Positions 469-14,669 of a stretch of DNA of 14,669 nt are shown piece after piece. Position numbers and translations under genes: made by a program. The first letter of the stretch is position 1. Every line of letters starts with the position of its first letter. The stretch lies in assembly GCA_013812995.1 (NCBI GenBank), contig JACCSL010000634.1, forward strand, positions 1 to 14,669, read 5' to 3'. The stretch comes from Ardenticatenales bacterium. GTDB lineage: Bacteria > Chloroflexota > Anaerolineae > Ardenticatenales > Ardenticatenaceae. The notes below the pieces were generated by a model that did not search any database, was not told the origin of the DNA, and saw only the letters and a list, made by a program, of their open reading frames with translations.

Positions 469-1181
469 GATCGGACCTCGGTAGGGGCTGATTCCAGCGC
501 GGCGAGCAGGGCTCTATCATTCTCAAAGCGGGATGGCGAGAGAAGGCGTGCCTCCACGGATACCTCAAAGTGCATCACGTTGAAGGGCCAGGGGTCGAGC
601 GTGACAGACCCATCCGACAGTTGCCGCATCTCGTACGATAGCCCATCGGCCCCCTCACCCAGCGCGACGGAACTACCATCTTCTGGCAAGCGCCGCCAGC
701 AGAGGACGAGCGAGAACCAATCGCACCAGCGAATCATCGCATACGCCTGCTTGATCTCTGGCTCCGTTACCCCAAGAGCCTGCTGCCACCGGGCACGCTG
801 CGCCGCCTGATGCTCCAGAAAATCATCAAGCATCTCTCCCTCGCCCCGGCGCGGCTCATAGAGATGGCTGGCATGTCGAGAGATTAGCAGGCCCACCCAG
901 CGGCTCTGGTGCAACCCGCGCGCAATGCCGCGCTCCCACTGTGCGATGCTCTCCGGGAGCGTCATCTGCGTGAAGTTGCGCGGCTCGCCCTTGTCTGTCA
1001 GCTGGGGAGCCGCTTCCCACTCACGCCACCCATTGTCATGCTGCGAAACAGCGATCAGCGTCTCCCACCAGCGAATGGGCCGTACGTCGCGTCGCCAGTG
1101 CCCGGCCACCTGCGCGGAGAGCAGCGCGTGCGCGGGCTGATAGATAACCTCCCAGCCCGTGTCCAGACGATTCACTATCAC
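444..1181 (-). CDS. DUF3891 family protein
   Basis: This 245-residue soluble protein has no signal peptide or membrane segment. Its N-terminal half carries the conserved features I associate with DUF3891: MIV start, PAHALLSAQVAGHW (H18, H28), AVSQHDNGWREWE (H48, D49, W52, W55), a 'P.L...G.P..F' segment and LLISRHASHLY (H103, H106). The family has no assigned function that I know of. The spacing of H18, H28, H48-D49 and H103/H106 resembles a metal-binding helical site, which is inference only. The start is a GTG whose GTGA overlaps the aroA stop by 4 bases, with GGGAGG about 10 bases upstream. It therefore sits in the same transcript as the two shikimate enzymes and the Nudix gene, but nothing in the sequence shows that it acts in that pathway. 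Confidence 0.85.
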   Translation of the reverse strand: MIVNRLDTGWEVIYQPAHALLSAQVAGHWRRDVRPIRWWETLIAVSQHDNGWREWEAAPQLTDKGEPRNFTQMTLPESIAQWERGIARGLHQSRWVGLLISRHASHLYEPRRGEGEMLDDFLEHQAAQRARWQQALGVTEPEIKQAYAMIRWCDWFSLVLCWRRLPEDGSSVALGEGADGLSYEMRQLSDGSVTLDPWPFNVMHFEVSVEARLLSPSRFENDRALLAALESAPTEVRSWTIAKQS

Positions 1182-2545
1182 AGGATCTCATCCTCCCAGC
1201 GCATCTCGGCCCCTAGCGAGCGCATCAGCTCGACAAAGTCCGGAAAGCTATCGTCGATGACCTCGGCCCGCTCGATGCGGCTTTCGCCCTCGGCGAGGAG
1301 CGCGGCCACCGCCAGCGCCATCGCCAGGCGGTGATCCATGTGGCTGTCCATGCTGGCCCCACGCAGGCGGGCCGGGCCATCCAGCACAAAACCATCCTCC
1401 CGCTCCGCCAGCGAGACGCCCATCTTGCGCAGTTCCTGCGCCACGCTGGCGATACGGTCACTCTCCTTGACACGTAACTCGCCAGCGTCGCGCAGCGTGG
1501 TGCGGCCTGCGGCCTGCGTGGCCGCCACAGCGAGAATCGGAAACTCGTCAATCGCACGCACCACAACCTCGCCGCCGATCTCCGCGCCGTTCAACTCCGT
1601 GCCCTGTGCCCGGATATACGCCGTCGGTTCGATGGTCGCGTCCGCGCTATGGCTCTGTTGGATCGACGCACCCATCATCGAAAGAATATCGAGGAAGCCT
1701 GTGCGGGTGGGGTTCACGCCCACCCCCGTCAGCCGCACCTCGCTGCCCCGCACGAGCGTCGCCGCCACGAGGGGGAAGGCAGCCGAGGAAGGATCCGAGG
1801 GGATGGAATAGGGGGTATTCTCAGGGCCACGCAGGGGACGCAGCGGCGCAGAGGGAGGAGCAATCGTTACGTGCGAGCCCGCGACCCGGAGCGCAACCCC
1901 CATCGCGCGCAGAAGTCGCTCGGTGTGATCGCGGGCCGGGCCGGGTTCGCGCACGGTGCTCTCGCCGCTGGCAAAGAGCCCGGCCAGGAGCAGGGCGCTT
2001 TTGACCTGGGCGCTCGCCAGAGGCATCTCGTAGTCCATCGGGGTGAGCGTCATGCCGCGCACGGCGAGAGGTGCTTTCTCCCGTCCGCCCATCTCGCGAC
2101 TGAGAATCGTCGCGCCCATCTCGCGAAGCGGTGCCGTCACGCGACCCATCGGGCGGCGGCGCAGGGCGGCATTGCCGGTGAGAACACTGGTGAAGGGCTG
2201 CCCCGCCAGGATACCCAGCAGTAGCCGCATCGTGGTGCCGCTGCCGCCGCAATCGAGAATTTCTTCCGGCTCCTGTAGCCCGCGCAGACCAACGCCCCGC
2301 ACCCGCACCGTTGTGGCGCTCTCGTGGGCGATTTCCACACCCATCGCTCGTAACACGCGCATCGTGGCGAGGCAATCCTCAGCCGGGAGCCAGCCCGTAG
2401 CGCGTGTTTCGCCCTCCGCCAGAGCCCCCAACAACAGCACGCGGTGAGAGATAGATTTATCTCCTGGCACGCGTGCCTCGCCCCGCAGCGGGGCCGTCGC
2501 GGGCGAAACAATGAGAGTTCTATGTAAGTGGCGGCTGGGGCTCAT
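1178..2545 (-). CDS. aroA: 3-phosphoshikimate 1-carboxyvinyltransferase (EPSP synthase)
   Basis: The enzyme transfers the enolpyruvyl group of phosphoenolpyruvate to shikimate-3-phosphate, the sixth step of the cytoplasmic shikimate pathway. From the ATG at 2545 it is 455 residues, near the usual 430-450. Visible landmarks are PGDKSISHR (27-35), GGSGTTMRLL (100-109), RRPMGRVTAPLREMG (130-144), ASAQVKSALLLAGL (177-190), RDHTERLL (205-212), NPTRTGF (278-284), IDEFPILAVAA (332-342, catalytic-type Asp/Glu), RVKESDRI (358-365) and DHRLAMA (404-410). The motif set follows the class II/Bacillus branch rather than E. coli, with Leu where E. coli has Pro101 but the neighbouring Gly kept. An upstream in-frame TTG at 2626 would add 27 residues of non-family sequence and lies 8 bases after the aroF stop. 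I prefer the ATG by family length, although it has no obvious Shine-Dalgarno. It follows aroF in the operon. Confidence 0.95.
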   Translation of the reverse strand: MSPSRHLHRTLIVSPATAPLRGEARVPGDKSISHRVLLLGALAEGETRATGWLPAEDCLATMRVLRAMGVEIAHESATTVRVRGVGLRGLQEPEEILDCGGSGTTMRLLLGILAGQPFTSVLTGNAALRRRPMGRVTAPLREMGATILSREMGGREKAPLAVRGMTLTPMDYEMPLASAQVKSALLLAGLFASGESTVREPGPARDHTERLLRAMGVALRVAGSHVTIAPPSAPLRPLRGPENTPYSIPSDPSSAAFPLVAATLVRGSEVRLTGVGVNPTRTGFLDILSMMGASIQQSHSADATIEPTAYIRAQGTELNGAEIGGEVVVRAIDEFPILAVAATQAAGRTTLRDAGELRVKESDRIASVAQELRKMGVSLAEREDGFVLDGPARLRGASMDSHMDHRLAMALAVAALLAEGESRIERAEVIDDSFPDFVELMRSLGAEMRWEDEIL

Positions 2546-2634
2546 GGCATCCACGGTGACTGCTTGAGGAAATCGGAGGGGGCGAAAACGGGGAGAGTTG
2601 CCTTCCCATAATCCCGGCCCAAACAATTGCCTTT

Positions 2635-3720
2635 CTATGTTTGATAGTCCCCCGCTCTACCATTGCTTGGGGGAAGCTCCTGGGACAGGCTTGGCAGGGC
2701 CGGGGCAATGCAGCGACCAATGGCCTCGGCGATGCGACGACACTGGCCCATAAGCTGTGCAAAATCCTCGGGCGTGAGGCTCTGCTGGCCGTCGCTCCAG
2801 GCATTGGAGGGATCCGGGTGAACCTCAATGATCAGACCGTCGGCCCCTGCTGCCAGCGCGCCGCGCGTCACGGCTCCCACATATTCCCACTTACCCACCC
2901 CGTGGCTCGGGTCCGCCACCACGGGCAGGTGTGAGAGGTGCTGGAGAACAGGAATCGCGTTCAGGTCGAAGGTGTTCCGTGTGGCGGTCTCATAGGTGCG
3001 GATGCCCCGCTCACAGAGCATCACCTGGTAGTTGCCATGCGAGAGAATATACTCCGCACACATGAGCAATTCCTTGATCATGCCTGAGATGCCCCGCTTG
3101 AGCAGTACCGGCTTCTGTGCCTCGCCCAGCGCGTGCAGCAGCGCGTAGTTCTGCATATTGCGTGCCCCCACCTGGAGAATGTCGGCGTATCGCGCGACCA
3201 GCTCCACCTGCTCGGGGCTCATGACCTCCGTGACAATTAGCAGCCCCGTCGCGGCACGTACCGCCGCCAGAATCTCCAGCCCTTCCTTGCCTAACCCCTG
3301 GAAATCGTAGGGGGAGGTGCGCGGCTTGAAGGCACCACCGCGCAGCACCGTGGCACCCGCCGCCTTCACCACCTGCGCGGTGGCGAGCATCTGCTCGTAG
3401 CTTTCCACCGAGCAGGGACCGGCCATCACCACCACCTCGTCCCCCCCGATGATCACGTTGCCAATCTCGATGAGCGTTTTCTCCGCTTTGAACTCGCGGC
3501 TGGCGAGCTTGAAGGGTTGGGTGACGGGCATGACTTTCTCCACCCCCTCCAACGCTTCCCAGCGCTGCTTGCTCTTGGGCGGATCATCGCCGATGACGCC
3601 GATAATCGTCCGCTCCTCACCGCGCGAGAGATGGGCGTGGAGCCCCTCTGCCTCAATGCGGCGTAGAACCTCGCCAATCTGGGCGGCTGTTGCTGTGGGA
3701 CGCATTACAATAATAACCAT
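2635..3720 (-). CDS. aroF: 3-deoxy-7-phosphoheptulonate (DAHP) synthase, type I-beta with ferredoxin-like N-terminal domain
   Basis: It condenses phosphoenolpyruvate and erythrose-4-phosphate to DAHP, the first shikimate-pathway step. The 361 residues divide into a ferredoxin-like domain (about 1-70, starting [18 protein letters not shown]) and a TIM-barrel catalytic domain. In Thermotoga-type enzymes the first domain is the allosteric aromatic-amino-acid site. Barrel motifs are MAGPCSVES (99-107), [16 protein letters not shown] (127-142), GARNMQN (185-191), LLKRG (206-210), CERGIRTYE (236-244) and ADPSHGVG (269-276). C103, H273, E299 and D310 match the four expected divalent-metal ligands. 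The ATG at 3720 is preceded by GGAGAAGGA, a strong ribosome binding site. The C-terminal 25 residues beyond the barrel look unstructured. This is the first gene of the aro operon. Feedback inhibition by Tyr or Phe is likely for the architecture but is not shown by the sequence. Confidence 0.95.
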
Positions 3721-3756
3721 TCCTTCTCCTTGCCATACCCGGCTGCTGCTGAGGAT

Positions 3757-3785
3757 ATAGTACCAATTTCAGTGGCAAATCGAAA
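3757..3785 (-). promoter_or_regulatory. weak candidate promoter of the aroF-aroA operon
   Basis: On the minus strand a TTTCGA (-35-like, 3780-3785) is separated by exactly 17 bases from TACTAT (-10-like, 3757-3762), about 37 bases before the aroF ATG. The match is only 3/6 and 4/6. The position is right because 3721-3829 is the only gap upstream of the operon. No tryptophan- or tyrosine-type operator or leader peptide was recognised. Confidence 0.3.
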
Positions 3786-3829
3786 AAATTAGTGCAACCC
3801 GTCACAAGTGAGTTGGGGACATCTTCGGC

Positions 3830-5941
3830 TCACCCCTGGGGGTTGGGAGCGGGCGGAGGAAGCTCAAAGATGTAAATGTCGCCGGCCTGGTAGGCCAACC
3901 GCACCCACTCTTTGCCAAGAAGTTCCAATGGCTGCAATGGCCCGGAGGATATCTGCATATAGAGGTGAGTCACACCTGCGTCGGTCAACTCGCGCCGCAG
4001 CTGAGCATCTTCGAGCGCCCCTGGTTCCATCGCTCTTGCCAACAGTGCTGGGTCGATCTCGCGCTGAAGTATCGTGGGGCGCTCGCCAAACAGAGGAAGC
4101 CAGAGAGCACTATCGAGGGGCTGAACATCTCCCTCCTCTGTTACCTGTACATTGATGAGAAAAAGAGAATCAGGCTGGGAGCTGCCCTGCGCCCATTGCA
4201 GCCCCATAATATCCGTCTCACGCAGGAGAATTCCCTCCGTTGGCAGCGGGGCACTGCGCCACCAGACAAGTGGCAAGAGCAGAAAAAAAAGTAGTACCGT
4301 CAGCAGGCGCTTCGGCAGGGGTTCCAGTCGCGACCCGATCTGCCCGATGAGCCAGGCAAGTAAGAGCGTCACGAAAAGCAGCGGGTAGCCTGCGGTCAGC
4401 GGCACCTGGGGAATCAGCGGAGAGCCCTTGAGGAGCAGAGGACCCAGCAGCGACATGGCAGCTAGCAGCCACAGAAGGAGCCGCAGAATGATCTGGCTCG
4501 TGTCAAGATCCTCCTCATGGTCAACCCCCTTGCCCGACCGACGCTGCCAGTAGAATTCTGCCAACCGCCACAGCAGAACAACCAGGACAACCACAAGCGC
4601 CCTTAGCCCCTCCAGCAACCCAAGGGCAGCCAGAGGAAAACTAGCGAGCAACAGGGTTCGGATGGGGCGCTCTGTGACCCGGAGCGCGCGCAGCCCTACC
4701 GCGAAGGTCGTCGGCAGGAGCACCATGACAAAGAGCAGCGAGAGGTCACCCTGTGCCAGAGCATCCCACGGGGCAGCCCAAAGCCAAGCAAGGGGAACCA
4801 CCCAGAGGCCCACCCATCCATCCTCCGCAACCTCGCTTGCCACGGTGTAAAGCGCGGGAATCAGGGACACGCCCAGCAGCAGCCCCGCGAGGAGCAACAT
4901 GGAGGCCAGAGGCTGGCGGCTGAGCTGGGCCAAAGTCGCCGTTAGCACGGCCAGCGGCAGCGGAGAGCCAAGGTGCTCCACCTGGCCCTCGCGGATTAGT
5001 TCCTGCGCAAGTAGACCGCTGTCCAGCGAAGAAACCCCTGCCGGGGCATAGAAAAGCCGTGCTGCGAGGAGCCAGGTCGCTATTCCCATCACAATCACGA
5101 GGGCTACGAGCAGCAGCGAGCCACGCCCTGTGCTCTGCCATGCCTGGCGGAGCCGTGGCAGGTCGCGAAGCATGAGCAGCAGCAGCAGCAAAGCGCTTGC
5201 CTGGAAGAGGCTCTGAACCAACGGCTCGTAAAGGCGCAGCCCCAGCAAGGAGGCCCAGAGATAGACCAGCGGAGCCAGGGCCAGGCTCAGGCCAGCCACG
5301 AAAGGAACAATGGGCCGCTTGCCGCCCGGATGGATCATCCAGGTTAAAAGCCAGCCTGGGGAGATGAGAAGCAACGGAATCCAGAGAGCCAGCTTGCGCC
5401 ATCGCTCAGCCGCACCATAGAGCTGCCAGGGCAGGTTCAGGGGGGTCTCCTGGACCTGTAGCTTGAAATGGAGATCGTTGTTGCCCTGCTCACTGTCCAG
5501 CAAAGAGCCGTCAAAATACTGATCTGTGCTACTGGCCCAGAGAGAAAGCATTGCCTCTTGCGGCGCGGTCAGGCCAAGCTCTACCTGCATTCCCTCCGGA
5601 AGAGGCGCGAACTGTAGTCGTAGGGGGGTATTAGGGGCATACCCCGCCGTTTCCACGTTTCCCTCCCGCAATACGGTGAGGGTCGTATCTCTCAGGTCCC
5701 ACGACAGGGGGCGGCTATCCAGTACGGGAGCCGTATCCGGAAAAACGAGGATGACTTCAATCTCGTTGGTTCCGGCAGGCAAGAAGAGCGTTTGGCGCAC
5801 GGGGCTACCATTTAATGGGCGTGTCCAGACGCTTGCCTCCGACTGCTCCCCAAGGGAAAGCGTGCGGGCGGGGGTACAGGCAGGAAGCAGGAGGCACAGG
5901 AGCAAGAGCAGAGGAAGGTAAATCCGTAGAGAAGAGTTCAT
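3830..5941 (-). CDS. polytopic membrane protein with N-terminal lipobox and extracytoplasmic domains (GT-C-like, uncharacterised)
   Basis: The protein is 703 residues. Residues 1-22 form a signal sequence ending in a lipobox (LPAC, C22). Residues 23-180 look like a soluble beta-rich extracytoplasmic domain. About 12-13 hydrophobic segments fill residues 184-561. A second soluble domain (562-703) ends in the 'GVTHLYMQISSG ... EWVRLAYQAGDIYIFEL' style often seen at the C-terminus of GT-C and PMT-like envelope proteins. The loop at 303-330 (SSLDSGLLAQELIREGQ...GSPLPLA) recalls the acidic luminal loop of GT-C glycosyltransferases. I see no convincing DxD, so catalytic activity is not claimed. A charged cytoplasmic stretch lies at 468-481. 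There is no clear ribosome binding site, and a terminator hairpin ends only 14 bases before the ATG, so its transcription start is unclear. Envelope glycan or lipid chemistry is a guess from context. Confidence 0.85.
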   Translation of the reverse strand: MNSSLRIYLPLLLLLCLLLPACTPARTLSLGEQSEASVWTRPLNGSPVRQTLFLPAGTNEIEVILVFPDTAPVLDSRPLSWDLRDTTLTVLREGNVETAGYAPNTPLRLQFAPLPEGMQVELGLTAPQEAMLSLWASSTDQYFDGSLLDSEQGNNDLHFKLQVQETPLNLPWQLYGAAERWRKLALWIPLLLISPGWLLTWMIHPGGKRPIVPFVAGLSLALAPLVYLWASLLGLRLYEPLVQSLFQASALLLLLLMLRDLPRLRQAWQSTGRGSLLLVALVIVMGIATWLLAARLFYAPAGVSSLDSGLLAQELIREGQVEHLGSPLPLAVLTATLAQLSRQPLASMLLLAGLLLGVSLIPALYTVASEVAEDGWVGLWVVPLAWLWAAPWDALAQGDLSLLFVMVLLPTTFAVGLRALRVTERPIRTLLLASFPLAALGLLEGLRALVVVLVVLLWRLAEFYWQRRSGKGVDHEEDLDTSQIILRLLLWLLAAMSLLGPLLLKGSPLIPQVPLTAGYPLLFVTLLLAWLIGQIGSRLEPLPKRLLTVLLFFLLLPLVWWRSAPLPTEGILLRETDIMGLQWAQGSSQPDSLFLINVQVTEEGDVQPLDSALWLPLFGERPTILQREIDPALLARAMEPGALEDAQLRRELTDAGVTHLYMQISSGPLQPLELLGKEWVRLAYQAGDIYIFELPPPAPNPQG

Positions 5942-5955
5942 GATAGGTGGCTCAC

Positions 5956-5991
5956 AAAAAGAGCCATCTCCGCCTTGGCAAGAGATGGCTC
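5956..5991 (-). terminator. rho-independent terminator (or attenuator) after the lipoprotein gene
   Basis: Perfect 10-bp arms (5961-5970 and 5982-5991; GAGCCATCTC and GAGATGGCTC read on the minus strand) enclose an 11-base loop and are followed on the minus strand by TTTTT (5956-5960). This is a classical intrinsic terminator for the gene ending at 6027. It is not bidirectional, since no T-run follows on the plus strand. The next gene's ATG is at 5941, only 14 bases past the T-tract. Confidence 0.85.
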
Positions 5992-6026
5992 GACTGACGG
6001 CTAGGTAGGATCAAGTTGGACCAACA

Positions 6027-6578
6027 CTAGGGCGCAGACATCGAGATATCATAGGCAAGCGTCCCAACATTGAGGGCCTCGCCCGCTTCTAGCTCAAAGA
6101 GCATATCGCGGCCTGTTTCAGGATGTTTCAGCATGACGCTGCCCATTGGGGTCCAGAAGAAGAGGGCATATTCCCCCGGCTCAACATTCTCAAAAACAAA
6201 GTTGCCCTGATCATCAACCCCTGTTTTGGGAGAGGTGATGTCATCCATGACCGCAGCTTGTTTGTTTCCGTTCTCGTCGTAGAGGATAGTGCCCAGGTAA
6301 ATCGCGCCCATATTCAGCGGGCCCTGGGGCTCTCCATCAATGATCTGGAGCAACGTACCCCCCAGGTTTGCCTTGGAGGTATCGCTGGGAGGAGTGACCT
6401 CAAAAGGCCCCGAGGAGGTTGGCGAGGAAGAAGCGGAGCTCTCTCCACCCTGCGTTTCTGAAGGGACCGGCGTCGATTCTTCCGTCGTGGGAGAGGGCTC
6501 AGAACCTCCTAACTGGCAGGCTACCAGGGAAGGGATGAGTAAAGCAAGAAGTACGATGCTTAGAAATCGTCGTGACAT
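6027..6578 (-). CDS. small lipoprotein with carboxypeptidase-regulatory-like beta domain
   Basis: The 183-residue precursor has a signal peptide with lipobox LVAC (C21), so it is probably lipidated and held on the outer face of the membrane. A Ser/Thr/Pro/Glu-rich, low-complexity linker (about 22-72) follows, then one compact beta domain (about 73-183). The domain carries 'GAIYLGTILYDENGNK ... TGVDDQGNFVFENVEPGEYALFF', the turn pattern of carboxypeptidase regulatory-like or Cna-B-type beta-sandwich folds. These folds usually serve adhesion or binding. No catalytic residues are evident. The ATG at 6578 follows AAGGTGG at a normal distance. A near-consensus promoter lies just upstream and a terminator follows, so the gene is apparently monocistronic. 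I do not recognise a more specific family. Confidence 0.85.
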   Translation of the reverse strand: MSRRFLSIVLLALLIPSLVACQLGGSEPSPTTEESTPVPSETQGGESSASSSPTSSGPFEVTPPSDTSKANLGGTLLQIIDGEPQGPLNMGAIYLGTILYDENGNKQAAVMDDITSPKTGVDDQGNFVFENVEPGEYALFFWTPMGSVMLKHPETGRDMLFELEAGEALNVGTLAYDISMSAP

Positions 6579-6605
6579 GAATCCACCTTTTTTAGACCGG
6601 CAGCG

Positions 6606-6634
6606 ATTGTAGGGAGGGCAGAAAGAGTTGTCAA
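6606..6634 (-). promoter_or_regulatory. near-consensus sigma-70 promoter of the lipoprotein gene
   Basis: On the minus strand TTGACA (6629-6634, 6/6) and TACAAT (6606-6611, 5/6) are separated by exactly 17 bases. The predicted transcript start near 6600 gives a leader of about 20 bases ending in the AAGGTGG ribosome binding site. It lies between the hairpin at 6656-6689 and the ATG at 6578. This is the best promoter in the window and suggests strong constitutive expression. Confidence 0.8.
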
Positions 6635-6655
6635 ACCACTATCCCTCTACACGAG

Positions 6656-6689
6656 ACAGAGCGGAACTGCCGGAGCAGTTCCGCTCTGT
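6656..6689 (-). terminator. long GC-rich hairpin with UNCG-type tetraloop downstream of the secreted repeat protein
   Basis: Two perfect 14-base arms (6656-6669 and 6676-6689) extend by one further C-G pair to a 15-bp stem. On the minus strand the loop reads C(TCCG)G, i.e. the extra-stable UNCG tetraloop. The hairpin begins 26 bases past the stop of the gene at 6716 and ends before the next promoter. No T-run follows, so it may be a U-less terminator or a 3'-end stabiliser rather than a standard intrinsic terminator. Confidence 0.65.
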
Positions 6690-6715
6690 TCGTCGCTGTC
6701 TGCATCAAGAACGTC

Positions 6716-8092
6716 TTAGCGGTTGGCACCCTCGTACACGAGGAACGAGTCGCTGGTAGCCAGCGTGCCCAATTCGTTGACCACACCAACGATGGGGCTA
6801 GCCGTGGAGGTGCAGGTCGCCGCACCCACGTACTTGTCCGCAAGTTTGTTGAGGTTCTGCACGGTGAGGGCACCGCCCGGCGCGACGCTGGCGCTATCCG
6901 TGAAGCTGCTACCGGTGTAGGTGCAGGTGATCGTCGTCGCCGTCGTACCCACGTTCATGATCGCGAAACCGGTGAAGTAACCGAAGTTGCGGTCCATGAT
7001 GAGGGGCAGCTCAACCGTCTGGGTCGCAAGGGTGCTGTTGAAGGCACCGTACGAGGCACCCTTGTTGGCAGGGCTGTTCAGCTGGTTGACGATGGCAACG
7101 AGGGGCATGTTGGCGCTGTTGGCCGTGACGCGGGCAGAACCGACGAAGCGTGCGTCATTGGCACAGGTCTCAGCCGCACCGGAGGTGCTCCCGAAGGCAC
7201 CCAGAGCAAACGTCGTCGAGCTCGCCGGAGCGATGCTCAGCATCTCGGTGCAGGCGGCACCTGCCTGGCTGGGCGTGTAGGTGATGGTCACGTTGGTGGC
7301 CGTGGCACCCGTGTTCTGGATCTGGATACCCGTGATGTAGCCAAAGTTGTTGGTGTTGATGAGCGGCATCACAGGGTTGGCGGACGCCTGCGAGGGCAGG
7401 AAGCCATCAAAGCCCAGGAGGGTGGTGGGACCCTGCTGTAGCAGCGTCGCAACGATGGGGGTGTTGTTGGAACTGGTGATCGTGGCCGAACCCACATAAC
7501 CCGCATTGCCGGTCGGGGCAGGGTCTGCCAGGGCAGCGTTGCTCTTCTGGTCGAAGGTGGCAGCGGCACCGGGCTTCACGGTCGCCACCTGGGTGGTACC
7601 ATTGTCGAACCGAACGGTGACAGTGGTTTCCGCAGAGCCAGCGTTCTGAACGTTGAACCAGGTGTTAAACCCGAAGTGCTCGCGGAAAACGAGGGGAATG
7701 TTCACCGGGCTGGCACCGTTCGCGAGAGCGGTGTAGCTGGCACCCATGCCCGAGAAACCATTGCCGAAGACGTTGGCGATGGCCGCCACTTGGCGATCCG
7801 AGCTGATAACGGCCGAGCCGTTGAAGCCAGCGGAAACGCCTTCAAGGACGGCGTAGGTCTTGGCGCTACCCGCGGCGATGGCGTTGGTACCGGTCAGGTT
7901 CAGCGTCCCGGCCGAGGTACCATCCTGATTGTAGTAGGTGATGGTGACGTTGGCAGGGTTGGCCTGATCCAGGTTCTTGATCTGAACACCGACGGAGTAG
8001 GTCACTCCTGTCGTCTGGGCACCAACGCTGGTTGCCATCACTGCCATCAGAAGCAGTGAAAGAACAACCACTAAAATAAGTTTTTTGTTCAT
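6716..8092 (-). CDS. secreted protein of four tandem beta-rich repeats
   Basis: From the ATG at 8092 the protein is 458 residues. A Sec signal peptide (MNKK, hydrophobic core 5-20, cleavage near GA-QTTG at 25/26) is followed by four diverged repeats at about 32-134, 141-243, 250-363 and 370-458. Each repeat has the plan 'hydrophobic strand - (Q/M)N.G...T.VT..Y - PG....F - (Y/F)VGSA - P(I/L)VA..NQ/NE - GAS/YxAF - PLI..NFGY'. The fourth repeat stops short of the PLI/NFGY tail. Four Cys (281, 310, 390, 427) occur only in repeats 3 and 4. No sortase motif, lipobox or C-terminal anchor is present, so it may be released or bind the envelope non-covalently. Ser/Thr/Asn/Ala-rich composition suggests a surface or matrix protein. 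An in-frame GTG at 8107 is rejected because it overlaps the ribosome binding site. No enzymatic role is apparent. Confidence 0.88.
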   Translation of the reverse strand: MNKKLILVVVLSLLLMAVMATSVGAQTTGVTYSVGVQIKNLDQANPANVTITYYNQDGTSAGTLNLTGTNAIAAGSAKTYAVLEGVSAGFNGSAVISSDRQVAAIANVFGNGFSGMGASYTALANGASPVNIPLVFREHFGFNTWFNVQNAGSAETTVTVRFDNGTTQVATVKPGAAATFDQKSNAALADPAPTGNAGYVGSATITSSNNTPIVATLLQQGPTTLLGFDGFLPSQASANPVMPLINTNNFGYITGIQIQNTGATATNVTITYTPSQAGAACTEMLSIAPASSTTFALGAFGSTSGAAETCANDARFVGSARVTANSANMPLVAIVNQLNSPANKGASYGAFNSTLATQTVELPLIMDRNFGYFTGFAIMNVGTTATTITCTYTGSSFTDSASVAPGGALTVQNLNKLADKYVGAATCTSTASPIVGVVNELGTLATSDSFLVYEGANR

Positions 8093-8098
8093 CTGAAG

Positions 8099-8104
8099 TC
8101 TCCT
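8099..8104 (-). promoter_or_regulatory. ribosome binding site that fixes the start of the repeat protein
   Basis: AGGAGA on the minus strand lies 6 bases before the ATG at 8092. The longer alternative starting with GTG at 8107 would put this sequence inside the coding region and add charged residues before the signal peptide. The site therefore supports the shorter form. Confidence 0.75.
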
Positions 8105-8262
8105 CACGATTTAGGGAATTGGGGTTGAAATGTAAGACGCAAACATTTTGCAGACAGCGTGTTTTGTTGTTCCTACAGAACGAGTTTAGCTTAGGGCATA
8201 ACGCATCGAAATTCAATAATAAGTAGGAGGTATTGTTACACGTCTTAACCCTCTACCAATGA

Positions 8263-9237
8263 CTAATACTTTCGGGTTATTCGCCTGTGAATGAGAGGAA
8301 TCAGCCAGGTTATCAGGGCAATAAGGAGTTCATAGAGGGTGATGCTCAACCGACTACCAATCGCCACGAGGGTAGCCACCGGAGGCGGCATATAGAAGGA
8401 GAGAATGAGCACCATCGATAGCTCAGATACGCCCAGACCACTCGGTAGAATCATGATCAAGAGCCCTGCCAGACCCCCCAGCGCCCATGCCCCGATGACT
8501 CCCACCCAGCCCTGCCAGGAGAGGGGCTGAAAAGAGATCGCAAGCAGGAGGAGGATCATCCCACCTAATACCCACATGAGGGAATAAGTCAGCAGCCATA
8601 GCAATACCAACCAGGGTGATAGAGGAGTCCCATCCGCGGTCGAATGGCTGCTGAGGGTACGCAGCCGCTGCCAAGTTGCCGGGTGAAATAGGGTCATGAC
8701 CGCAATCAGCAATCCAAGGAGGATGAGCCCGGCCTGCCAGAAACCGGTAAGCTGGCTGGCAATCACTGGCCATGTGAGGAGAAGGACGAACGCGCCACTA
8801 ATCATCATCAATACGACTTCGAGTCCACTGACGACGGCGATGGCGCGTTTGGGTATGCCAAATGGCTGGTAGAGGACGGCCCGGCCTGCCACATGCCACA
8901 GAGAGCCGGGCAGGCGTCGTGTGACACCTGTGGTGATGTAGATATACCAGTGGTTCACCCAGGGGACCGGGGGAGCCATCTGCCCCATCATGCTGCCCCA
9001 TACCCAGACCGCCAGAACCAGGGCCAGGGCATAGAGTAAAAAAATGAGTAGAAAGCCCTGCCATCGAATCTGGGCAAGGAGCGTGGCAAGATCATACTCG
9101 CCTGCCAGGAAGGCTCGCCCCGCATACCAGAGCAGGAAGAGGAAGACGAAAATGGTTACCAGAGCGAGAAGTCGCCTACCCAGAGCCTGGTAGCGATCAA
9201 GCCACAGGCGGAACTCCTTAATCAGGGAGGTGGACAT
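8263..9237 (-). CDS. flippase-like integral membrane protein (lysylphosphatidylglycerol synthase TM / UPF0104-type)
   Basis: This 324-residue protein has about eight hydrophobic segments. Signature stretches of the LPG synthase TM family (without the aminoacyl-transfer domain) are RRLPGSLWHVAGR (107-119), SGLEVVLM near 137-144, ILPSGLGVSELS (263-274, the 'PGG.G..E' equivalent) and IGSRLSITLYE (293-303). Free-standing members commonly sit in glycan and glycolipid clusters and are proposed to translocate or retain lipid-linked intermediates, but activity is rarely proven. It is the last gene of the five-gene surface cluster. Its ATG overlaps the preceding methyltransferase by 20 bases. A GTG at 9252 is an alternative start adding five residues. 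Neither start has a clear ribosome binding site, which fits translational coupling. The transcript has no obvious terminator after 8263. Confidence 0.85.
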   Translation of the reverse strand: MSTSLIKEFRLWLDRYQALGRRLLALVTIFVFLFLLWYAGRAFLAGEYDLATLLAQIRWQGFLLIFLLYALALVLAVWVWGSMMGQMAPPVPWVNHWYIYITTGVTRRLPGSLWHVAGRAVLYQPFGIPKRAIAVVSGLEVVLMMISGAFVLLLTWPVIASQLTGFWQAGLILLGLLIAVMTLFHPATWQRLRTLSSHSTADGTPLSPWLVLLWLLTYSLMWVLGGMILLLLAISFQPLSWQGWVGVIGAWALGGLAGLLIMILPSGLGVSELSMVLILSFYMPPPVATLVAIGSRLSITLYELLIALITWLIPLIHRRITRKY

Positions 9238-9991
9238 CAGGGGCGCGCTCACAAATAAAATAAAAGTGGCTCGCCCAATTGACAGGGATCAGGGGGGAGA
9301 GGGCCAGGCGCACCATCCAGCGCCAGTTGGAGAGATAGGCCTGGACATCCTCCCAGGATCGTGGGATCTCTCGTTCATATTTGCCCACCCAGTGCACACG
9401 CAGGCCATTGTTTTCCAACAACCGCTCCCAGTCCTTGCGCGCCCCATACCGCTGAAGCGGCTGTCCATCATCGACGGCGTGCCCCTTGCGAAGGGCTTCA
9501 TAGCTATTTTGCAGGATACTGAAGGTGTTCGGAACCAGGATCGCGGCTCGCCCACCGGGCCGGAGGACGCGCGCCATCTCCCTTACCCCCTGGGCCATAT
9601 CAATGAAATGCTCTAGGCTGCCCACGTTGGTCACATAATCGAAATAGGCAGTGGGGAAGGGCATCTCCTGCCCATTGGCTACCAGAATGGCACCACCTGT
9701 CTCCCGCGCGGCCAGCTGCGCTGCCACCAGGGAGAGATCAAAGCCGATGCTATGGACCTGTCGGCGCGTGGCCTCGCGCACGACTACGCCCTCGCCGCAG
9801 GACACATCAAGGAGCAAGGTCCCTGGCTGCGGGTTCAGGATATCCAGCACCCACTCATAAAAGGAGTCGAGCAGGCGAATGCCCTTCTCTCGGTAAAGGT
9901 CATCATATTCGAGGCGCGTCCAGTCATCGGGGTGATAGCTGGTCTCACGCCGTATCACAATCATTGATTCATCCATAGGAAACTCTTTCAT
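9218..9991 (-). CDS. class I SAM-dependent methyltransferase
   Basis: This cytoplasmic protein has 257 residues. SAM-binding motif I is LLDVSCGEG (60-68), followed by an acidic post-I position (GFDLS, about 83-87), a motif II-like segment (FDYVTNVGSLEHF, with the common 'LEH') and the motif III-like 'ARVLRPGGRAAILVPN'. This is the Methyltransf_11/25 layout. The acceptor is not predictable, but the glycosyltransferase neighbours suggest a sugar or lipid-linked intermediate. The start ATG at 9991 shares ATGA with the upstream methyltransferase stop and has AAGGG 4-5 bases before it. An internal ATG at 9976 has a weaker upstream site. Its 3' end overlaps the flippase-like gene. Confidence 0.88.
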   Translation of the reverse strand: MKEFPMDESMIVIRRETSYHPDDWTRLEYDDLYREKGIRLLDSFYEWVLDILNPQPGTLLLDVSCGEGVVVREATRRQVHSIGFDLSLVAAQLAARETGGAILVANGQEMPFPTAYFDYVTNVGSLEHFIDMAQGVREMARVLRPGGRAAILVPNTFSILQNSYEALRKGHAVDDGQPLQRYGARKDWERLLENNGLRVHWVGKYEREIPRSWEDVQAYLSNWRWMVRLALSPLIPVNWASHFYFICERAPDVHLPD

Positions 9992-10917
9992 TCGCCCTTC
10001 TGTGCAAAGAAGGTCATGGCGGAACTGGAATTAAACCGTTCGGCGACCGTAAAATAAGGATAACTGAGCACCTGTGCTGGCAGTGTGCCTAGCACTCGCG
10101 ACCAGAGCGCGCGGAGGCGATGGGTGGGGGCTGCCTGTGCCCAATGGGCAGCACTCAATACCCACACACCATGTCGATCAGTAAAAGAACTCAGGCGAAT
10201 TTGTCCGAACCCTACCGCGTTCAAGAGGTGTTCCAGGGTATGGGGCGTGAAGTGGTAGAGGTGGCGAGGGGCATCCCAGCCTGCCCACCACGGACCCCAC
10301 AGGCGCGCATCCCAGCCGGCCGCATTTGGTACCGTGAGAACGAGGGTGCCTCCCGGTGCTAGCAAGTCATAGAGGCGGGACAGGGCTGCCGCTGGCTCAG
10401 GAAGATGCTCCAAAACATGCCAGAGAGTGATGACGTCAAAAGAGCCCTTCACCAGGGGAGCATCTTCCAGCGTGCCACAGAACACATCAAGCTTTAGTTG
10501 TTCCCGAGCAAACGTTGCCGCCCGTTCATTAAGTTCAACCCCCTGCACCTGCCAGCCTTCGGAGCGGAGGGCCTCCAGAAAGAGTCCTGTGGCACATCCC
10601 ACGTCCAGCGCTCGTCCCGCCTCTGGCTGGAAAGTACGCACCGCACGAACCCGTTTCTGCTGGAAGCGCCGCCGCATCCAGCGGCGGAGTGGAGAGTGGT
10701 CGCTCTGAATGGGCTGCTCGAAGGGGGCATAATCGTCCGGATAAAAGGCACCCAGTTCGTCAACGGTAGGGCGTGGGTTGAGCCGAAGGAGCGTGCATTC
10801 TGCGCACGACACCACATGAAACTGCTCATCTGTCACCAGTCCCAGACGATCTGTTAGTGTGATATGGGGATGATACTGCTCGCTACCGCAGAAGCCGCAG
10901 GGGATATGAACTCTCAT
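9988..10917 (-). CDS. class I SAM-dependent methyltransferase with N-terminal zinc-ribbon-like module
   Basis: The protein has 309 residues. Two Cys pairs, C7/C10 (PCGFCGS) and C38/C41 (SCAECTLLRLNPRP), form a plausible four-Cys zinc site. They are followed by the 'FYPDDY' linker common in this Methyltransf_23-type subfamily. SAM motif I is ALDVGCATG (103-111), with a later ITLWHVLEHLPEP segment and 'LLAPGGTLVLTVPN'. A C-terminal region with WWAGWDAPRHLYHFT is also typical. Such proteins are frequent in O-antigen, capsule and glycolipid loci and are presumed to methylate a sugar or nucleotide-sugar. That role is inferred from family and context. Both ends overlap neighbours by 4 bases (ATGA). 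It is a different subfamily from the next methyltransferase, so this is not a recent duplication. Confidence 0.88.
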   Translation of the reverse strand: MRVHIPCGFCGSEQYHPHITLTDRLGLVTDEQFHVVSCAECTLLRLNPRPTVDELGAFYPDDYAPFEQPIQSDHSPLRRWMRRRFQQKRVRAVRTFQPEAGRALDVGCATGLFLEALRSEGWQVQGVELNERAATFAREQLKLDVFCGTLEDAPLVKGSFDVITLWHVLEHLPEPAAALSRLYDLLAPGGTLVLTVPNAAGWDARLWGPWWAGWDAPRHLYHFTPHTLEHLLNAVGFGQIRLSSFTDRHGVWVLSAAHWAQAAPTHRLRALWSRVLGTLPAQVLSYPYFTVAERFNSSSAMTFFAQKGE

Positions 10918-12107
10918 GGATGGTGCCTCAACGCGCTAAAGTAGTGATGCTCCAGTCGGCCTGCCTGCCGATCCCAGTTGAAGCACTCTCGAATCAGGCG
11001 CTGCCCGGTCAGATGGTAGTGCTGGTGGGCTGTCGGCTCCTCATCGAGCAGGGCGAGGGTTTGCCGCACGACATCCTCCGGTGTGTCATCCGCCAGCCGC
11101 CCCAGCTTTTCCTGCTCAAAAAGGGTCTCGATATCCCCCACCCGCGTCGCAACCACCGGACGACCAATACAGAGATAATCCAGCAGCTTGGCTGGCATCC
11201 GCCCACGGTTGGCCCCGGTGTTCACCAGGGGAAGCCAGAACAGATCACAGGCGGCCAGGTGCAGATTCAACGCCTCCTCGGAAAGGTAACCCGGCTCCAG
11301 AAGCGCCTCGGTATCGCGCAGATGTGCCAGCAGTGGGTAGGTGTGCTGTCCTAGGCGAAGTAATTTCACCCCGGGACGGAGCGCGTGAAGGCGATCAAAG
11401 GCAGCCCCCATGAGGTCCAGATCAACGGGAAAAGCCGAGCCGACATAACCAATGAGAAGCGGCTCGTGGGGCAGGCCGAGTCGCTGGCGAGCCTCCGCAC
11501 GTGGGATAGGGCGAAGGCGATGGCTATCCGCGCCATTGGGGAGCCACAGGATACTTTCCGGCGCTACCCCGAGGGCCAGGGCCTTGTCTCGCAACACGCT
11601 GTTGATGACGGTAGTTCCTGCCGCCTGAGTCCGGAAATGCTCCTCGAACCAGCTCTCGACGGGACGAAGCACGGTGCGAACGAGGGGATTCGGGCGCATC
11701 TCCACCGAGCCCCCCGCCCCGAACCAATCGCACCAATCCATGACGAGCGCGGCCCGGTGCTGGCGGGTGGCGTAAAGGGCCGGAACGATCACGGTGGGGC
11801 GTGACTCGAACGCATGAACAACGTCGAAGGGCTCATGACTCAGCCAGCGGAGTCGCGCCAGCGTCTCAACAGGGTCCCAGCCGGAACGGAGCGGACCCCA
11901 GAGCCAATCGGGGAACTCCACGATGCGCACCCCCTCCTCCGTGCGTTCCGTGACTTTCCAGCGCGCCGTCCGTGACATCGCCAGCACAGAGAGTTGATGG
12001 CCCCGTGCGGCCAGGGCACGCGCAAAGCCCAAGGCGCGGAAGTAGGTTCCCCGCCCGACCTCGTTGAAAACAAGCATGGCCACGCGCAGCGACGCGTCAG
12101 GGGGCAC
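10914..12107 (-). CDS. GT4-family (GT-B fold) glycosyltransferase
   Basis: The 397-residue protein starts with the first Rossmann strand RVAMLVFNE (8-16) and a Gly-rich loop (VGRGTYFRALGFARAL). The C-terminal domain has LLIGYVGSAF (217-226), DLFWLPL (288-294) and RMPAKLLDYLCIGRPVVAT (303-321). The last is the nucleotide-sugar-binding region of GT4 enzymes, with Asp in place of the more usual second Glu. A retaining mechanism and UDP- or GDP-sugar donors are typical of the family; the actual donor is unknown. No transmembrane segment is present, so it probably acts at the inner face of the membrane. The start is a GTG at 12107, overlapping the GT2 gene by 11 bases. The next in-frame ATG would cut into the first beta-strand, which favours the GTG. 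Confidence 0.88.
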   Translation of the reverse strand: MPPDASLRVAMLVFNEVGRGTYFRALGFARALAARGHQLSVLAMSRTARWKVTERTEEGVRIVEFPDWLWGPLRSGWDPVETLARLRWLSHEPFDVVHAFESRPTVIVPALYATRQHRAALVMDWCDWFGAGGSVEMRPNPLVRTVLRPVESWFEEHFRTQAAGTTVINSVLRDKALALGVAPESILWLPNGADSHRLRPIPRAEARQRLGLPHEPLLIGYVGSAFPVDLDLMGAAFDRLHALRPGVKLLRLGQHTYPLLAHLRDTEALLEPGYLSEEALNLHLAACDLFWLPLVNTGANRGRMPAKLLDYLCIGRPVVATRVGDIETLFEQEKLGRLADDTPEDVVRQTLALLDEEPTAHQHYHLTGQRLIRECFNWDRQAGRLEHHYFSALRHHP

Positions 12108-13026
12108 AGTTCACCCCCTCGACATGGACCTCGTCGCGCAGGCCATGCCAGAGCCCACGCCAATACGCACGCAATGCCTTGCTCTGGCCCCGCCGCGCGA
12201 GTTGCAGGGAACTCTTCAGGGCACTGGCAAGGCGGAACGGGATGATGGCAAGCCACTGGCCCCGCTGCGCGTGCTTGCGGAAAAATTGAAGGCTAGCCCG
12301 ACCTTTCTGGTAGCGCTCCGAGGCACTGCCCACCCCCCCGCTGCTCTGGGCTTCCTTGTGCCACATCCGCGCACCGGGGGCAACCAGCAGCGCCCATCCA
12401 GCCTGTCTGGCGCGCAAAGACCAATCGCTATCCTCGTAGTACATGAAAAATTGCTCGTCGAACAGGCCGATTTCCTGAAGCGCCTCACGGCGAAATAGCA
12501 GGGCGCATCCCGTCAGAAACTCCGTCTGGAAGGGATGCGTGGGTAGCGGCTGCGAGCGCCCGTGATTGCCCGTCATTTCCAGCGTCCAGGGGTGTCGCCC
12601 GCCGCCCACGGACCAGATCGCTGTGGGGGGATCGGTATAGAAAATCGCGGGGGAGACAGCGGCGACCTTGCCCTGAAACGACTCCAGCAGCGGTGCCCCC
12701 ATCTCCGGGTCGAACAGGGTATCGTTGTTGAACAGGAAAAGAGCGTCAGCCCCTTGCTTCAGCGCATGGCGAAGCCCGCTGTTGGCCCCCCTGGCAAAAC
12801 CAAGGTTATTCTCATGGGCAAGCACTTCGACCTGGGGAAAATGCGCCTGTACGATGGTCACCGTGTCATCCGTTGAGCCGTTATCGACCAGAAGCACCCG
12901 CACCTCCCAGCCAGCAGGCCAGCGCACCTCCAGAAAGGAGGAGAGACAGGCAAGCGTGTCCTCTTTACGGTTCCAGTTCAGGGTAATGGCGTAGAGAAGC
13001 CGTTGGTTCGAAGAAAAAGATATCAC
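12097..13026 (-). CDS. GT2-family glycosyltransferase (rhamnosyltransferase-like)
   Basis: This 309-residue protein has a GT-A fold. Motifs are YAITLNWNRKED (12-23), LLVDNGSTDDT (45-55), NLGFARGANSG (74-84), FLFNND (97-102, the DXD-like metal/donor site), FLTGCALLFRREAL and FDEQFFMYYEDSDWSLRARQAGW. This series is typical of inverting GT2 enzymes grouped with rhamnosyltransferases that extend surface polysaccharides. The donor cannot be assigned. The only usable start is GTG at 13026, because no in-frame ATG precedes the first beta-strand, and its ribosome binding site is weak. It heads the five-gene operon, with an extended -10 element about 58 bases upstream. The downstream GT4 gene overlaps it. 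Confidence 0.9.
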   Translation of the reverse strand: MISFSSNQRLLYAITLNWNRKEDTLACLSSFLEVRWPAGWEVRVLLVDNGSTDDTVTIVQAHFPQVEVLAHENNLGFARGANSGLRHALKQGADALFLFNNDTLFDPEMGAPLLESFQGKVAAVSPAIFYTDPPTAIWSVGGGRHPWTLEMTGNHGRSQPLPTHPFQTEFLTGCALLFRREALQEIGLFDEQFFMYYEDSDWSLRARQAGWALLVAPGARMWHKEAQSSGGVGSASERYQKGRASLQFFRKHAQRGQWLAIIPFRLASALKSSLQLARRGQSKALRAYWRGLWHGLRDEVHVEGVNCAP

Positions 13027-13061
13027 TCGGGCAAAATCCGACTCTTGATTGGGGTTATATG

Positions 13062-13082
13062 GCGGGCCGTGCCAAAGCCCGC
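13062..13082. repeat. inverted repeat at the predicted transcript start of the glycan operon
   Basis: The arms GCGGGC (13062-13067) and GCCCGC (13077-13082) are perfect, with a 9-base spacer, and both outer flanks carry TTATAT. The repeat covers the predicted start point on the minus strand, so it could be a short 5' hairpin or an operator. Six-base arms are short enough to arise by chance. Confidence 0.35.
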
Positions 13083-13083
13083 G

Positions 13084-13092
13084 ATTATATCA
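13084..13092 (-). promoter_or_regulatory. extended -10 promoter of the surface-glycan operon
   Basis: On the minus strand the sequence TGATATAAT combines a perfect TATAAT (13084-13089) with the upstream TG of an extended -10. There is no good -35: the best at 18-base spacing is TTCGGG, which fits an extended -10 dependence. The predicted start is near 13077, giving a leader of about 50 bases before the GTG at 13026. The leader begins with the GCCCGC-type inverted repeat at 13062-13082. Confidence 0.55.
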
Positions 13093-13097
13093 CCATT

Positions 13098-13138
13098 CTG
13101 AACGAAGCCCGAACTGCTGAGCGGTGCGCGTCGTTCAG
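13098..13138. repeat. inverted repeat in the divergent promoter region
   Basis: Perfect 8-base arms CTGAACGA (13098-13105) and TCGTTCAG (13131-13138) flank 25 bases. One arm lies in the spacer of the extended -10 promoter and the other upstream of its -35 position, a layout compatible with a dimeric regulator. No regulator family is recognised. Confidence 0.35.
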
Positions 13139-13264
13139 GCTGCGCCCGTCACGGTAAAAACCTTAAAAAGCGAGTCCCCAGCAAATCTTGCCGCAAATTC
13201 TCCCTGACGCCCCGTTTACCCTGCCATTCGACCATGACCAGAGTACTACACGCTCGAGGAAACC

Positions 13265-13984
13265 ATGCAAAAGCTTGAACAACGCCCGGCCTATACACTG
13301 ATGATCGCGGACATGGCGCGCGAGGAGCGCCCGCGTGAGCGGCTGATTCACTACGGGGCCAGCGCCCTCGCCAATCGCGAGTTGCTCGCCATCCTGCTGC
13401 GCACGGGCGTGCAGGGCTGCTCCGTGCTCGACCTCTCGGACAGGCTCCTGAGTGAGTTCGGCGGGCTGCGCGGTCTCTCCCAGGCCACCGTCAATGAGAT
13501 CAGCCAGACGGTGCATGGCCTCGGCCCGGCCAAGGCCGCGCAGGTCCTGGCCGCGCTGGAGCTGGGCCAGCGCGCCGCCACGCTCCACCCCGACGAGAAA
13601 CCCCAGGTCAAAACCCCTGCCGATGCCGCGAACCTTCTCATGGGCGACATGGCTTACTTTAATCAGGAGCATCTGCGCGTTTTGATCTTGGACACAAAAA
13701 ATGTGGTCCAAAATCAGTGGCGGCACTCGCTGTACAAGGGCAGTCTCAACTCCAGCGTCGTGCGCGTCGCGGAGGTCTTCCGGGAGGCGATCCGATGCAA
13801 CGCCGCCGCCATCATCGTGGCGCACAACCACCCCTCCGGCGACCCGACGCCCTCCCCCGAGGACATCCGCGTGACGCGCGATATTCGCCAGGCGGGCGAG
13901 CTGCTGGATATCCAGCTTCTCGATCACATCGTCATTGGGGCACAGCGCTGGGTGTCGATGAAAGAACGCGGGCTCGGTTTTTAG
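13265..13984 (+). CDS. radC: RadC/UPF0758 family JAB-domain protein
   Basis: The 239-residue protein has an N-terminal UPF0758 region ([30 protein letters not shown], about 19-48) and a helix-hairpin-helix-like segment ([12 protein letters not shown] equivalent, about 83-95). The C-terminal JAB/MPN domain carries a complete JAMM zinc site: E170, then H187-x-H189 ([15 protein letters not shown]), with D200 ten residues after H189. The historical link to DNA repair is weak, and the biochemical role of chromosomal RadC is unsettled. The motif suggests a metallo-hydrolase. The length matches the family. The ATG at 13265 follows CGAGGAAACC, an adequate ribosome binding site. It is transcribed divergently from the glycan operon. 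The next gene on the plus strand starts 35 bases after its stop and may be co-transcribed. No confident promoter was seen in 13140-13260. Confidence 0.95.
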
Positions 13985-14007
13985 CGTTTGGCGTTCAACC
14001 ATTTTTG

Positions 14008-14013
14008 AAGGAG
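14008..14013 (+). promoter_or_regulatory. strong ribosome binding site of the small gene at 14020
   Basis: AAGGAG lies 6 bases before the ATG at 14020, close to the ideal arrangement. It predates the inverted-repeat insertion, because the duplicated target (AAATGATTA) begins two bases before the ATG. The second copy of the ATG at 14131 has no such site, so initiation probably stays at 14020. Confidence 0.75.
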
Positions 14014-14017
14014 CTAA

Positions 14018-14026
14018 AAATGATTA
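14018..14026. repeat. left 9-base target-site duplication of the miniature element
   Basis: AAATGATTA here is identical to 14129-14137 and directly abuts the GGG end of the inverted-repeat element. It contains the ATG and second codon of the small gene. Confidence 0.85.
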
Positions 14027-14370
14027 GGGTGTGTTTCATTTCAGTTGGAACCCGTCTGACCCGGCTTGGAATTCGCGCTGGCTCGCTGCGATGGTCCTTC
14101 GCTCTCCCAACTCATTTGAAACACACCCAAATGATTATTCCCTATGGTTACGGAATCTTGGTTGCTGATTTGCGAGGGCGCTATCCATTGTTGTATTTCG
14201 TACTGAAATTCATTGATTTCCTCATACGGACCTCTAAAAAAACAGGCAGTTTCTACAGGTCAGAGCAAATGATGATGATTGCGCTATGTGTGGAATATGA
14301 TACTCTTCGCCCCCTTGACATATTGGGGGATTCGGTCTATGAGGCCATATACCCTGCATCTCGTCTCTAA
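14020..14370 (+). CDS. uncharacterised small protein with 37-codon N-terminal extension from an inserted element
   Basis: The 116-residue frame starts at the ATG 6 bases after AAGGAG. Codons 1-37 come from an insertion of 102 element bases plus a 9-base duplication; codon 38 is the duplicated start Met. The ancestral product would be the last 79 residues, MIIPYGYGILVADLRGRYP..., with a hydrophobic, aromatic stretch around LLYFVLKFIDFLI and a Lys-rich turn. I do not recognise this protein. It may be a complete small gene or a remnant of something larger. The extension (RVCFISVGTRLTRLGIRAG...) is Arg-rich and unlike any domain I know. Base composition is clearly more AT-rich than in radC and the rest of the window, suggesting horizontally acquired DNA. 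Context is a restriction-enzyme-like fragment downstream. Expression and function are unproven. Confidence 0.6.
   Translation: MIRVCFISVGTRLTRLGIRAGSLRWSFALPTHLKHTQMIIPYGYGILVADLRGRYPLLYFVLKFIDFLIRTSKKTGSFYRSEQMMMIALCVEYDTLRPLDILGDSVYEAIYPASRL
14027..14128. mobile_element. 102-base MITE-like inverted-repeat element inserted at a start codon
   Basis: Both ends begin GGGTGTGTTTCA reading inward (14027 rightwards; 14128 leftwards on the minus strand). They continue, after four mostly different bases, with AGTTGG. That gives 22-base terminal inverted repeats with 19 identities. The element is flanked on both sides by AAATGATTA (14018-14026 and 14129-14137), a 9-base target-site duplication. It is far too short to encode a transposase, so it must have been mobilised by one elsewhere. 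Nine-base duplications occur in IS4- and IS903-type groups, but I cannot assign a family. It has no stop in the frame of the host gene. Confidence 0.85.
14129..14137. repeat. right 9-base target-site duplication of the miniature element
   Basis: AAATGATTA here is identical to 14018-14026. It supplies a second ATG (14131-14133) in frame with the first, at the junction with the ancestral coding sequence. Confidence 0.85.
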
Positions 14371-14401
14371 TCCACTAAGCTATTGGAGACTTTGACATCA
14401 A

Positions 14402-14641
14402 ATGACTACACACAGTTTGTCACCCTCTGACTTTCAGCCTATCGCCATCATTGTTCAGCAGGGGAAAGTTCTCGATTTTATTGACGGCCAGACACAACGT
14501 GAGGAAACCCCTGAAGAATATGTCCGCCAGGAAATAGCCAAGTCCTTAGCTCGACTTTATCCATTGGTAGTCCAACATCGTACATTTTCTAGCTGTCCCA
14601 GCCCCACAAGGTTCGAGGGAATGGGGAAACAGGCTTGGTAA
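14402..14641 (+). pseudogene. probable N-terminal fragment of a type I restriction enzyme R (HsdR-like) subunit
   Basis: The frame encodes 79 residues before a stop. Residues about 23-53 (VLDFIDGQTQREETPEEYVRQEIAKSLARLY, quoted here only as the span) resemble the start of HsdR_N-type domains, where 'R..TPEE.VRQ' precedes the nuclease core of type I restriction endonucleases. After LARLY the expected 'YP...I.VE' nuclease sequence is missing, and the tail (HRTFSSCPSPTRFEGMGKQAW) looks unrelated. Neither other forward frame resumes the homology, so this is not a simple single frameshift. More likely it is truncated by a deletion or an insertion from about 14565 onward. No HsdM or HsdS is visible before the window ends. 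The ribosome binding site is poor (GGAG about 13 bases upstream). It could alternatively be a short standalone protein. Confidence 0.5.
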
Positions 14642-14669
14642 TCAGGAAAGGGGCTGACACATCTCAATC

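Follow-up and report, generated by a model that had tools for sequence, protein, structure and literature searches.

The locus and its features

The window, by which we mean the whole stretch of DNA analysed, is contig JACCSL010000634.1 of an Ardenticatenales bacterium (positions 1-14,669; contig C201 here), and it comes from a 5.03-Mb draft genome of 1069 contigs that is 83.6% complete. Near its right end, a radC-like gene is followed by a short mobile element lying over the start of a small open reading frame (ORF), and then by the beginning of a methylase-like gene (Table 1).

Table 1. Coordinates of features in the window and of the family member at locus L146
Feature	Position	Strand or context	Remarks
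radC-like gene, upstream	13265..13984	+	Pfam RadC 141 bits, UPF0758_N 96.5 bits
Shine-Dalgarno-like AAGGAG	14008..14013	+	6 bases before ATG 14020, score 3.3
Target-site duplication, upstream copy AAATGATTA	14018..14026	+	contains ATG 14020
Extended ORF	14020..14370	+	116 codons + stop; 37 codons from element and duplication
MITE with ISKra4-type ends	14027..14128	+	102 bp, without transposase coding capacity
Left terminal inverted repeat	14027..14048	+	19/22 bases match right repeat, outer 12 exact
Right terminal inverted repeat	14107..14128	-	outer 21 bases identical to end of the C678 IS
Target-site duplication, downstream copy AAATGATTA	14129..14137	+	contains ATG 14131
Core ORF	14131..14370	+	79 aa, no accepted relative
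N-6 DNA methylase-like gene, N-terminal part	14402..14548	+	cut by second repeat
L146 MITE	L146:394-503	within ORF L146:2-841, - strand	110 bp

An earlier note on this DNA had described a 102-base element between perfect 9-base repeats that carry an ATG, and both length and repeats are as it said: the two copies of AAATGATTA agree at 9/9 bases. Its 22-base terminal inverted repeats stand as inverted ends but not as perfect ones, since three of the 22 bases mismatch outside the exact outer 12. The note had also held that element and duplication add 37 codons free of in-frame stops, and that the original ribosome binding site and ATG read through the element into a second ATG. This is what is found: the AAGGAG is kept, and the frame of ATG 14020 runs open through 116 codons to the stop at 14368-14370. 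Of the six frames across the element, two are free of stops, and these belong to the + strand. No promoter or terminator sites were found close to the element.

Copies and parent-like elements in the same genome

A search with positions 14027-14128, which the earlier note had suggested, recovered four other copies from this genome at 91-99% identity, making five with that of the window. Three copies, the window's included, keep both flanks, and each of them lies within a distinct exact 9-bp duplication; those of the copies on C1030 and C738 read TAATCAATT and TTTTGATTT, respectively. Both of these copies are called intergenic, and in the C738 copy a single base change places a stop in the frame that the window copy keeps open. 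The C917 copy runs into its contig end, and the C138 copy (L026:2380-2473) has lost its right end. An ORF near the latter has a sub-cut-off match to the putative transposase NF041680 (273.1 bits against a cut-off of 440).

In a genome as fragmented as this one, a repeated element could also mark a place where the assembly has joined unrelated flanks. We give this explanation next to no credence: identical 9-base stretches stand on either side of the element, they are absent from the other copies with both flanks, and a duplication that is unique among the copies speaks against an assembly error there.

Three longer elements in the genome (C553, C364 and C678) share the MITE end. The C678 element is a complete insertion sequence (IS) of 1601 bp, whose transposase is encoded in two overlapping frames and matches the NCBIfam ISKra4 model NF033572 at 232.6 bits (cut-off 205). 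It is identical to the window MITE at 21/21 bases of one end, the likeness is confined to the end sequence, and its own flanks show no matching duplication. Because the ends are all that is common, the MITE probably moved in trans, presumably by the action of an ISKra4 transposase, and is probably not a recent internal deletion of the C678 IS. The copies with duplications of their own and the IS ends that match thus bear out the earlier note's view of a MITE-like element. In short, the element is an ISKra4-type MITE: its ends are inverted at 19/22 bases, it is flanked by a 9-bp repeat, it is present in five copies, and it has autonomous relatives (C678 in this genome, L076 and L080 elsewhere in the family).

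The small ORF and its neighbourhood

Our home-made gene caller gives the 116-codon reading at the window and the 79-codon reading in the modelled empty site. The Shine-Dalgarno score is 0 at ATG 14131 and 3.3 at ATG 14020. By codon score, the 79-aa ORF comes out first among its six frames under three of the four models; under the one that represents the window's GC class, a reverse frame scores slightly above it (6.61 vs 6.07). Single-sequence structure predictions were not usable, with a mean pLDDT of 55.9 for the 79-aa and 44.1 for the 116-aa product.

No relative of the 79-aa ORF was accepted in Pfam, PHROGs, PADLOC, NCBIfam or PDB sequences, in 100 relatives or 396 class genomes (own genome included in both), by exact peptide patterns in genome contigs or viral contigs, or by tblastn of plasmids and phages. 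The best PHROG match (E 0.055) was not accepted. A match in another genome (G069:C275; 31% identity, two internal stops, E 0.006 per genome) was rejected as chance, because about 2.4 such matches are expected in 396 genomes and there is no matching ORF at the place; a local tblastn gave it an E of 6e-6 in 3.2 kb. Because these collections yielded no orthologue, the empty site is putative.

The neighbourhood gives further hints. At 43%, the G+C of the ORF region lies below the 60% of the window as a whole. The first 49 residues of the next ORF, which starts 32 bases further on, match N-6 DNA methylases on two plasmids (69% and 79% identity). Nothing resembling the 79-aa ORF lies upstream of either plasmid match, and a search for the 49 residues in the remaining 395 class genomes was negative. 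A second repeat (14548-14669) cuts the methylase-like gene and reaches the contig end; it is matched, in full or in part, at 8 other places in the genome.

One may therefore ask whether the 79-aa ORF is a gene at all, or whether the MITE simply entered AT-rich intergenic DNA, with radC on one side and a broken methylase gene on the other, where the frame is open by accident. This would agree with the missing relatives, with the low G+C and the second repeat, and with the family's habits, as 34 of the 54 listed insertions discussed below are intergenic. Moreover, under a local sequence model, any one ATG would be followed by 79 open codons with a probability of 0.023. On the other hand, the Shine-Dalgarno is strong and correctly spaced: in first-order Markov simulations of the empty-site region, only 4 of 5000 sequences contained a same-strand ATG ORF of at least 79 aa with an equally strong Shine-Dalgarno (260/5000 when any Shine-Dalgarno was allowed). 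The next ORF is, by similarity, the start of a real gene, which makes a series of small genes plausible here. We consider it unlikely that the ORF is not a gene; it is probably a small accessory gene.

The wider family

To sample the family, genome contigs were searched for the pattern of the end motif, which gave at least 114 stretches; together with the window and further loci, these yielded at least 70 paired-end elements. Among the matches listed, 66 elements have both 9-bp flanks, with duplications that are exact in 49, differ by one base in 6 and by more in 11. Their targets, again among the matches listed, are AT-rich and near-palindromic about a central G or C (AAATSATTT), and members fall mostly in Chloroflexota. 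Two longer members carry ORFs above the ISKra4 cut-off: L076 (1575 bp, 270.4 bits), with an exact 9-bp duplication, and L080 (1724 bp, 285 bits). The ISKra4-type MITEs of Chloroflexota form a broad family, one that is not named in the literature found.

Eleven of the 114 listed stretches bear names from outside Chloroflexota (Armatimonadetes, Chthonomonas, Verrucomicrobia and Desulfamplus; L033, L039, L062, L142 and others). Their end motifs reflect either spread between phyla or binning errors.

A fused gene pair at a second locus

At locus L146 (SLSP01000449.1, a Thermoflexales MAG), another member of the family covers the place where a nucleotidyltransferase ORF ends and a HEPN ORF begins. 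As sequenced, a single 279-codon frame spans both ORFs and the element, with Pfam matches to HEPN (59.9 bits), Polbeta (30.7 bits) and NTP_transf_2 (24.4 bits). The nucleotidyltransferase part has matches in 83 of 298 class genomes (that of the L146 element included). At all 11 other loci examined, the nucleotidyltransferase frame ends by itself; at nine of them a HEPN match starts 11 to 23 bases before the nucleotidyltransferase stop, in another frame, and at two no HEPN match was found. Some more distant nucleotidyltransferase matches, outside these 11 loci, lie in open frames of 200-424 aa.

L146 is a better documented case than the window, and its fusion is worth following because relatives show the state before insertion. 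The HEPN similarity is confined to the first 91 of 129 residues; the tail therefore differs, and the pair may be decaying.

Reading frame and start codon: favoured or chance

A special class of protein-extending elements, as the earlier note had envisaged, would be expected to keep the frame often. Among the matches listed, 8 of the 48 short elements with exact duplications, or 5 of 20 distinct lengths, give a multiple of three once the 9 bases are added; this is below one in three. Since family copies are not independent, we draw only the conclusion that frame-keeping is not favoured. With the C738 copy closed in the window's frame as well, the notion of a special element was not upheld.

To place the window among other insertions, we considered 54 listed elements shorter than 400 bp with at most one mismatch between their duplications, and modelled their empty sites. 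Genes were called with a simple home-made codon model checked by eye on the window only. The controls were 1518 target-like sites in the same loci, picked by a matrix built from the same duplications. Of the insertions, 34 are intergenic, 9 lie across a stop codon, 8 within coding sequence (CDS) and 3 across a start codon; the controls comprise 443 intergenic, 53 stop, 973 CDS, 24 start with and 25 start without a Shine-Dalgarno. A start codon with a good Shine-Dalgarno was hit once among the 54, at the window itself (24/1518 controls, P 0.59), and any start codon three times (49/1518, P 0.42). CDS insertions are strongly depleted (P 3e-13), as expected from selection, and where they occur, the frames that enter the element mostly stop soon after entry. 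Stop-codon insertions are enriched (P 2e-4, or 0.045 with CDS sites excluded from insertions and controls); the duplication copies the stop codon, so that the end of the gene survives.

Two longer elements with the same ends (L028:2848, on C364, and L039:188) lie directly behind a Shine-Dalgarno and ATGAT, and reading into their end terminates after 7 codons. A further candidate for an in-frame start-codon case, L069, was rejected, as its Shine-Dalgarno precedes a later ATG.

These counts bear on two other explanations. If start codons were the element's target, the position of those two IS ends behind a Shine-Dalgarno and ATG would be accounted for, but the frequencies at starts among the 54 listed insertions, with or without a Shine-Dalgarno, match those of the controls, and targeting is exceedingly improbable. 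Alternatively, the element might be a selected extender of proteins in the style of the Rickettsia palindromic elements, its added peptide kept because it functions. Two open frames in one orientation and the open fusion at L146 are in keeping with this. However, few listed elements are in frame, neither a start-codon nor a frame pattern is shared, one base change closes the C738 frame, insertions in CDS are depleted and those that exist mostly meet stops shortly after the element begins. We regard such selection as very improbable. A further reading is that the family acts as an occasional editor of gene boundaries: its AT-rich palindromic target (near AAATSATTT) and 9-bp duplication would spare start and stop codons, its nearly stop-free orientation would allow some insertions to extend proteins (as at the window) or to join adjacent operon genes (as at L146), and some of the products would be functional. 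This idea strikes us as quite improbable too.

With neither frame nor start codon favoured in the listed sample, the in-frame extension looks like chance. That is, the outcome at the window is most likely accidental, and neutral or mildly harmful. In-frame outcomes at chance level across the 54 insertions warn against seeing purpose in single cases.

Proposed mechanism and effect on expression

Taken together, we favour, with a probability of about three in four, the account that a non-autonomous ISKra4-type MITE inserted across the beginning of a small ORF that follows radC, duplicated the ATG and stayed in frame by chance. An ISKra4 transposase would have acted on the MITE ends and inserted the MITE at the AT-rich AAATGATTA, a target that would by chance have included the start codon. 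The staggered cut, once repaired, would have left this target and its start codon in two copies. The old Shine-Dalgarno would now serve the first ATG, and initiation at 14020 would carry ribosomes through 34 element codons into the old ORF, adding 37 residues. The frame stays open because the subfamily is 102 bp long (102 + 9 is divisible by three) and two of the three frames are open in this orientation.

As RNA, the element, whose first base comes 7 bases after the A of ATG 14020, is predicted to fold at -40.5 kcal/mol (z -5.2). The insertion could mainly lower or stop expression, through an RNA hairpin behind the first ATG and a second ATG without a Shine-Dalgarno, the open frame being of minor importance. 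The strength of the fold and the bare ATG 14131 speak for this, as does the long fold, in which bases +4 to +20 are predicted unpaired at 0.17 with the element vs 0.45 without it. Against it, the Shine-Dalgarno is predicted to stay accessible (0.72 with vs 0.77 without), and a short local fold leaves the first ATG more open with the element (unpaired at 0.70 vs 0.22). The long fold gives the opposite for that ATG (0.15 vs 0.28 at the empty site); as the two folds disagree there, the hairpin argument is mixed. From these models it is possible that the terminal hairpin reduces translation, and we hold loss of expression as the main effect to be a tentative alternative, somewhat unlikely on balance. 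On the favoured account of chance in-frame extension, ATG 14020 would be the codon used for initiation.

Comparison with known systems

Prokaryotic Mutator-like elements, among them ISKra4, have inverted repeats of 18-39 bp, are flanked by an 8- or 9-bp direct repeat and occur in Chloroflexi, among other bacteria (PMC3942029). The ISKra4 family (p-MULT 4) and the window MITE are alike in inverted ends that begin with GGG, in the 9-bp duplication, in the ISKra4 transposase of ISs that share the MITE's ends and in their presence in Chloroflexi. They differ in that the MITE itself has 102 bp and no transposase gene. Members of ISKra4 that target sigma-A promoters insert with the promoter some 13-17 bp from the junction; in the listed sample no such preference was seen, as an E. 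coli-type consensus, which may not suit these bacteria, places a promoter there at 2/107 ends and at 4/415 control sites.

Neither ISKra4 MITEs of Chloroflexota nor start-codon duplication by a MITE appeared in the titles and abstract openings of the open-licence literature, and print at large may differ. Small mobile repeats that add residues are nevertheless familiar. In a review of prokaryotic MITEs (PMC10969869), intragenic MITEs that give in-frame fusions are described as not unusual, with the Rickettsia palindromic elements as the extreme. Like these, the window MITE is a short element read in frame within an ORF. In contrast, the Rickettsia elements carry, according to that review, a conserved peptide in many genes, while the window MITE offers one case in its own genome and a frame that is not conserved. 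Frequent in-frame insertion and a conserved peptide mark the Rickettsia-like class, and 8/48 listed lengths in frame, together with the closed frame of the C738 copy, place the MITE outside it.

Other examples are the Coxiella QMITEs, which extend or overlap ORFs (PMC5896051), and the enterobacterial RU elements, which carry ORFs (PMC2759123). Both resemble the window MITE as small repeats that add residues or overlap the ends of ORFs. However, they have other sequences and other parents, and the cases cited in these papers are C-terminal, internal or ORF-carrying, whereas the window MITE copies a start codon. Accidents in which mobile DNA lengthens a frame, as at the window, have precedents in bacteria, and the window provides a clean, datable example of a small mobile element that lengthens a reading frame without breaking it.
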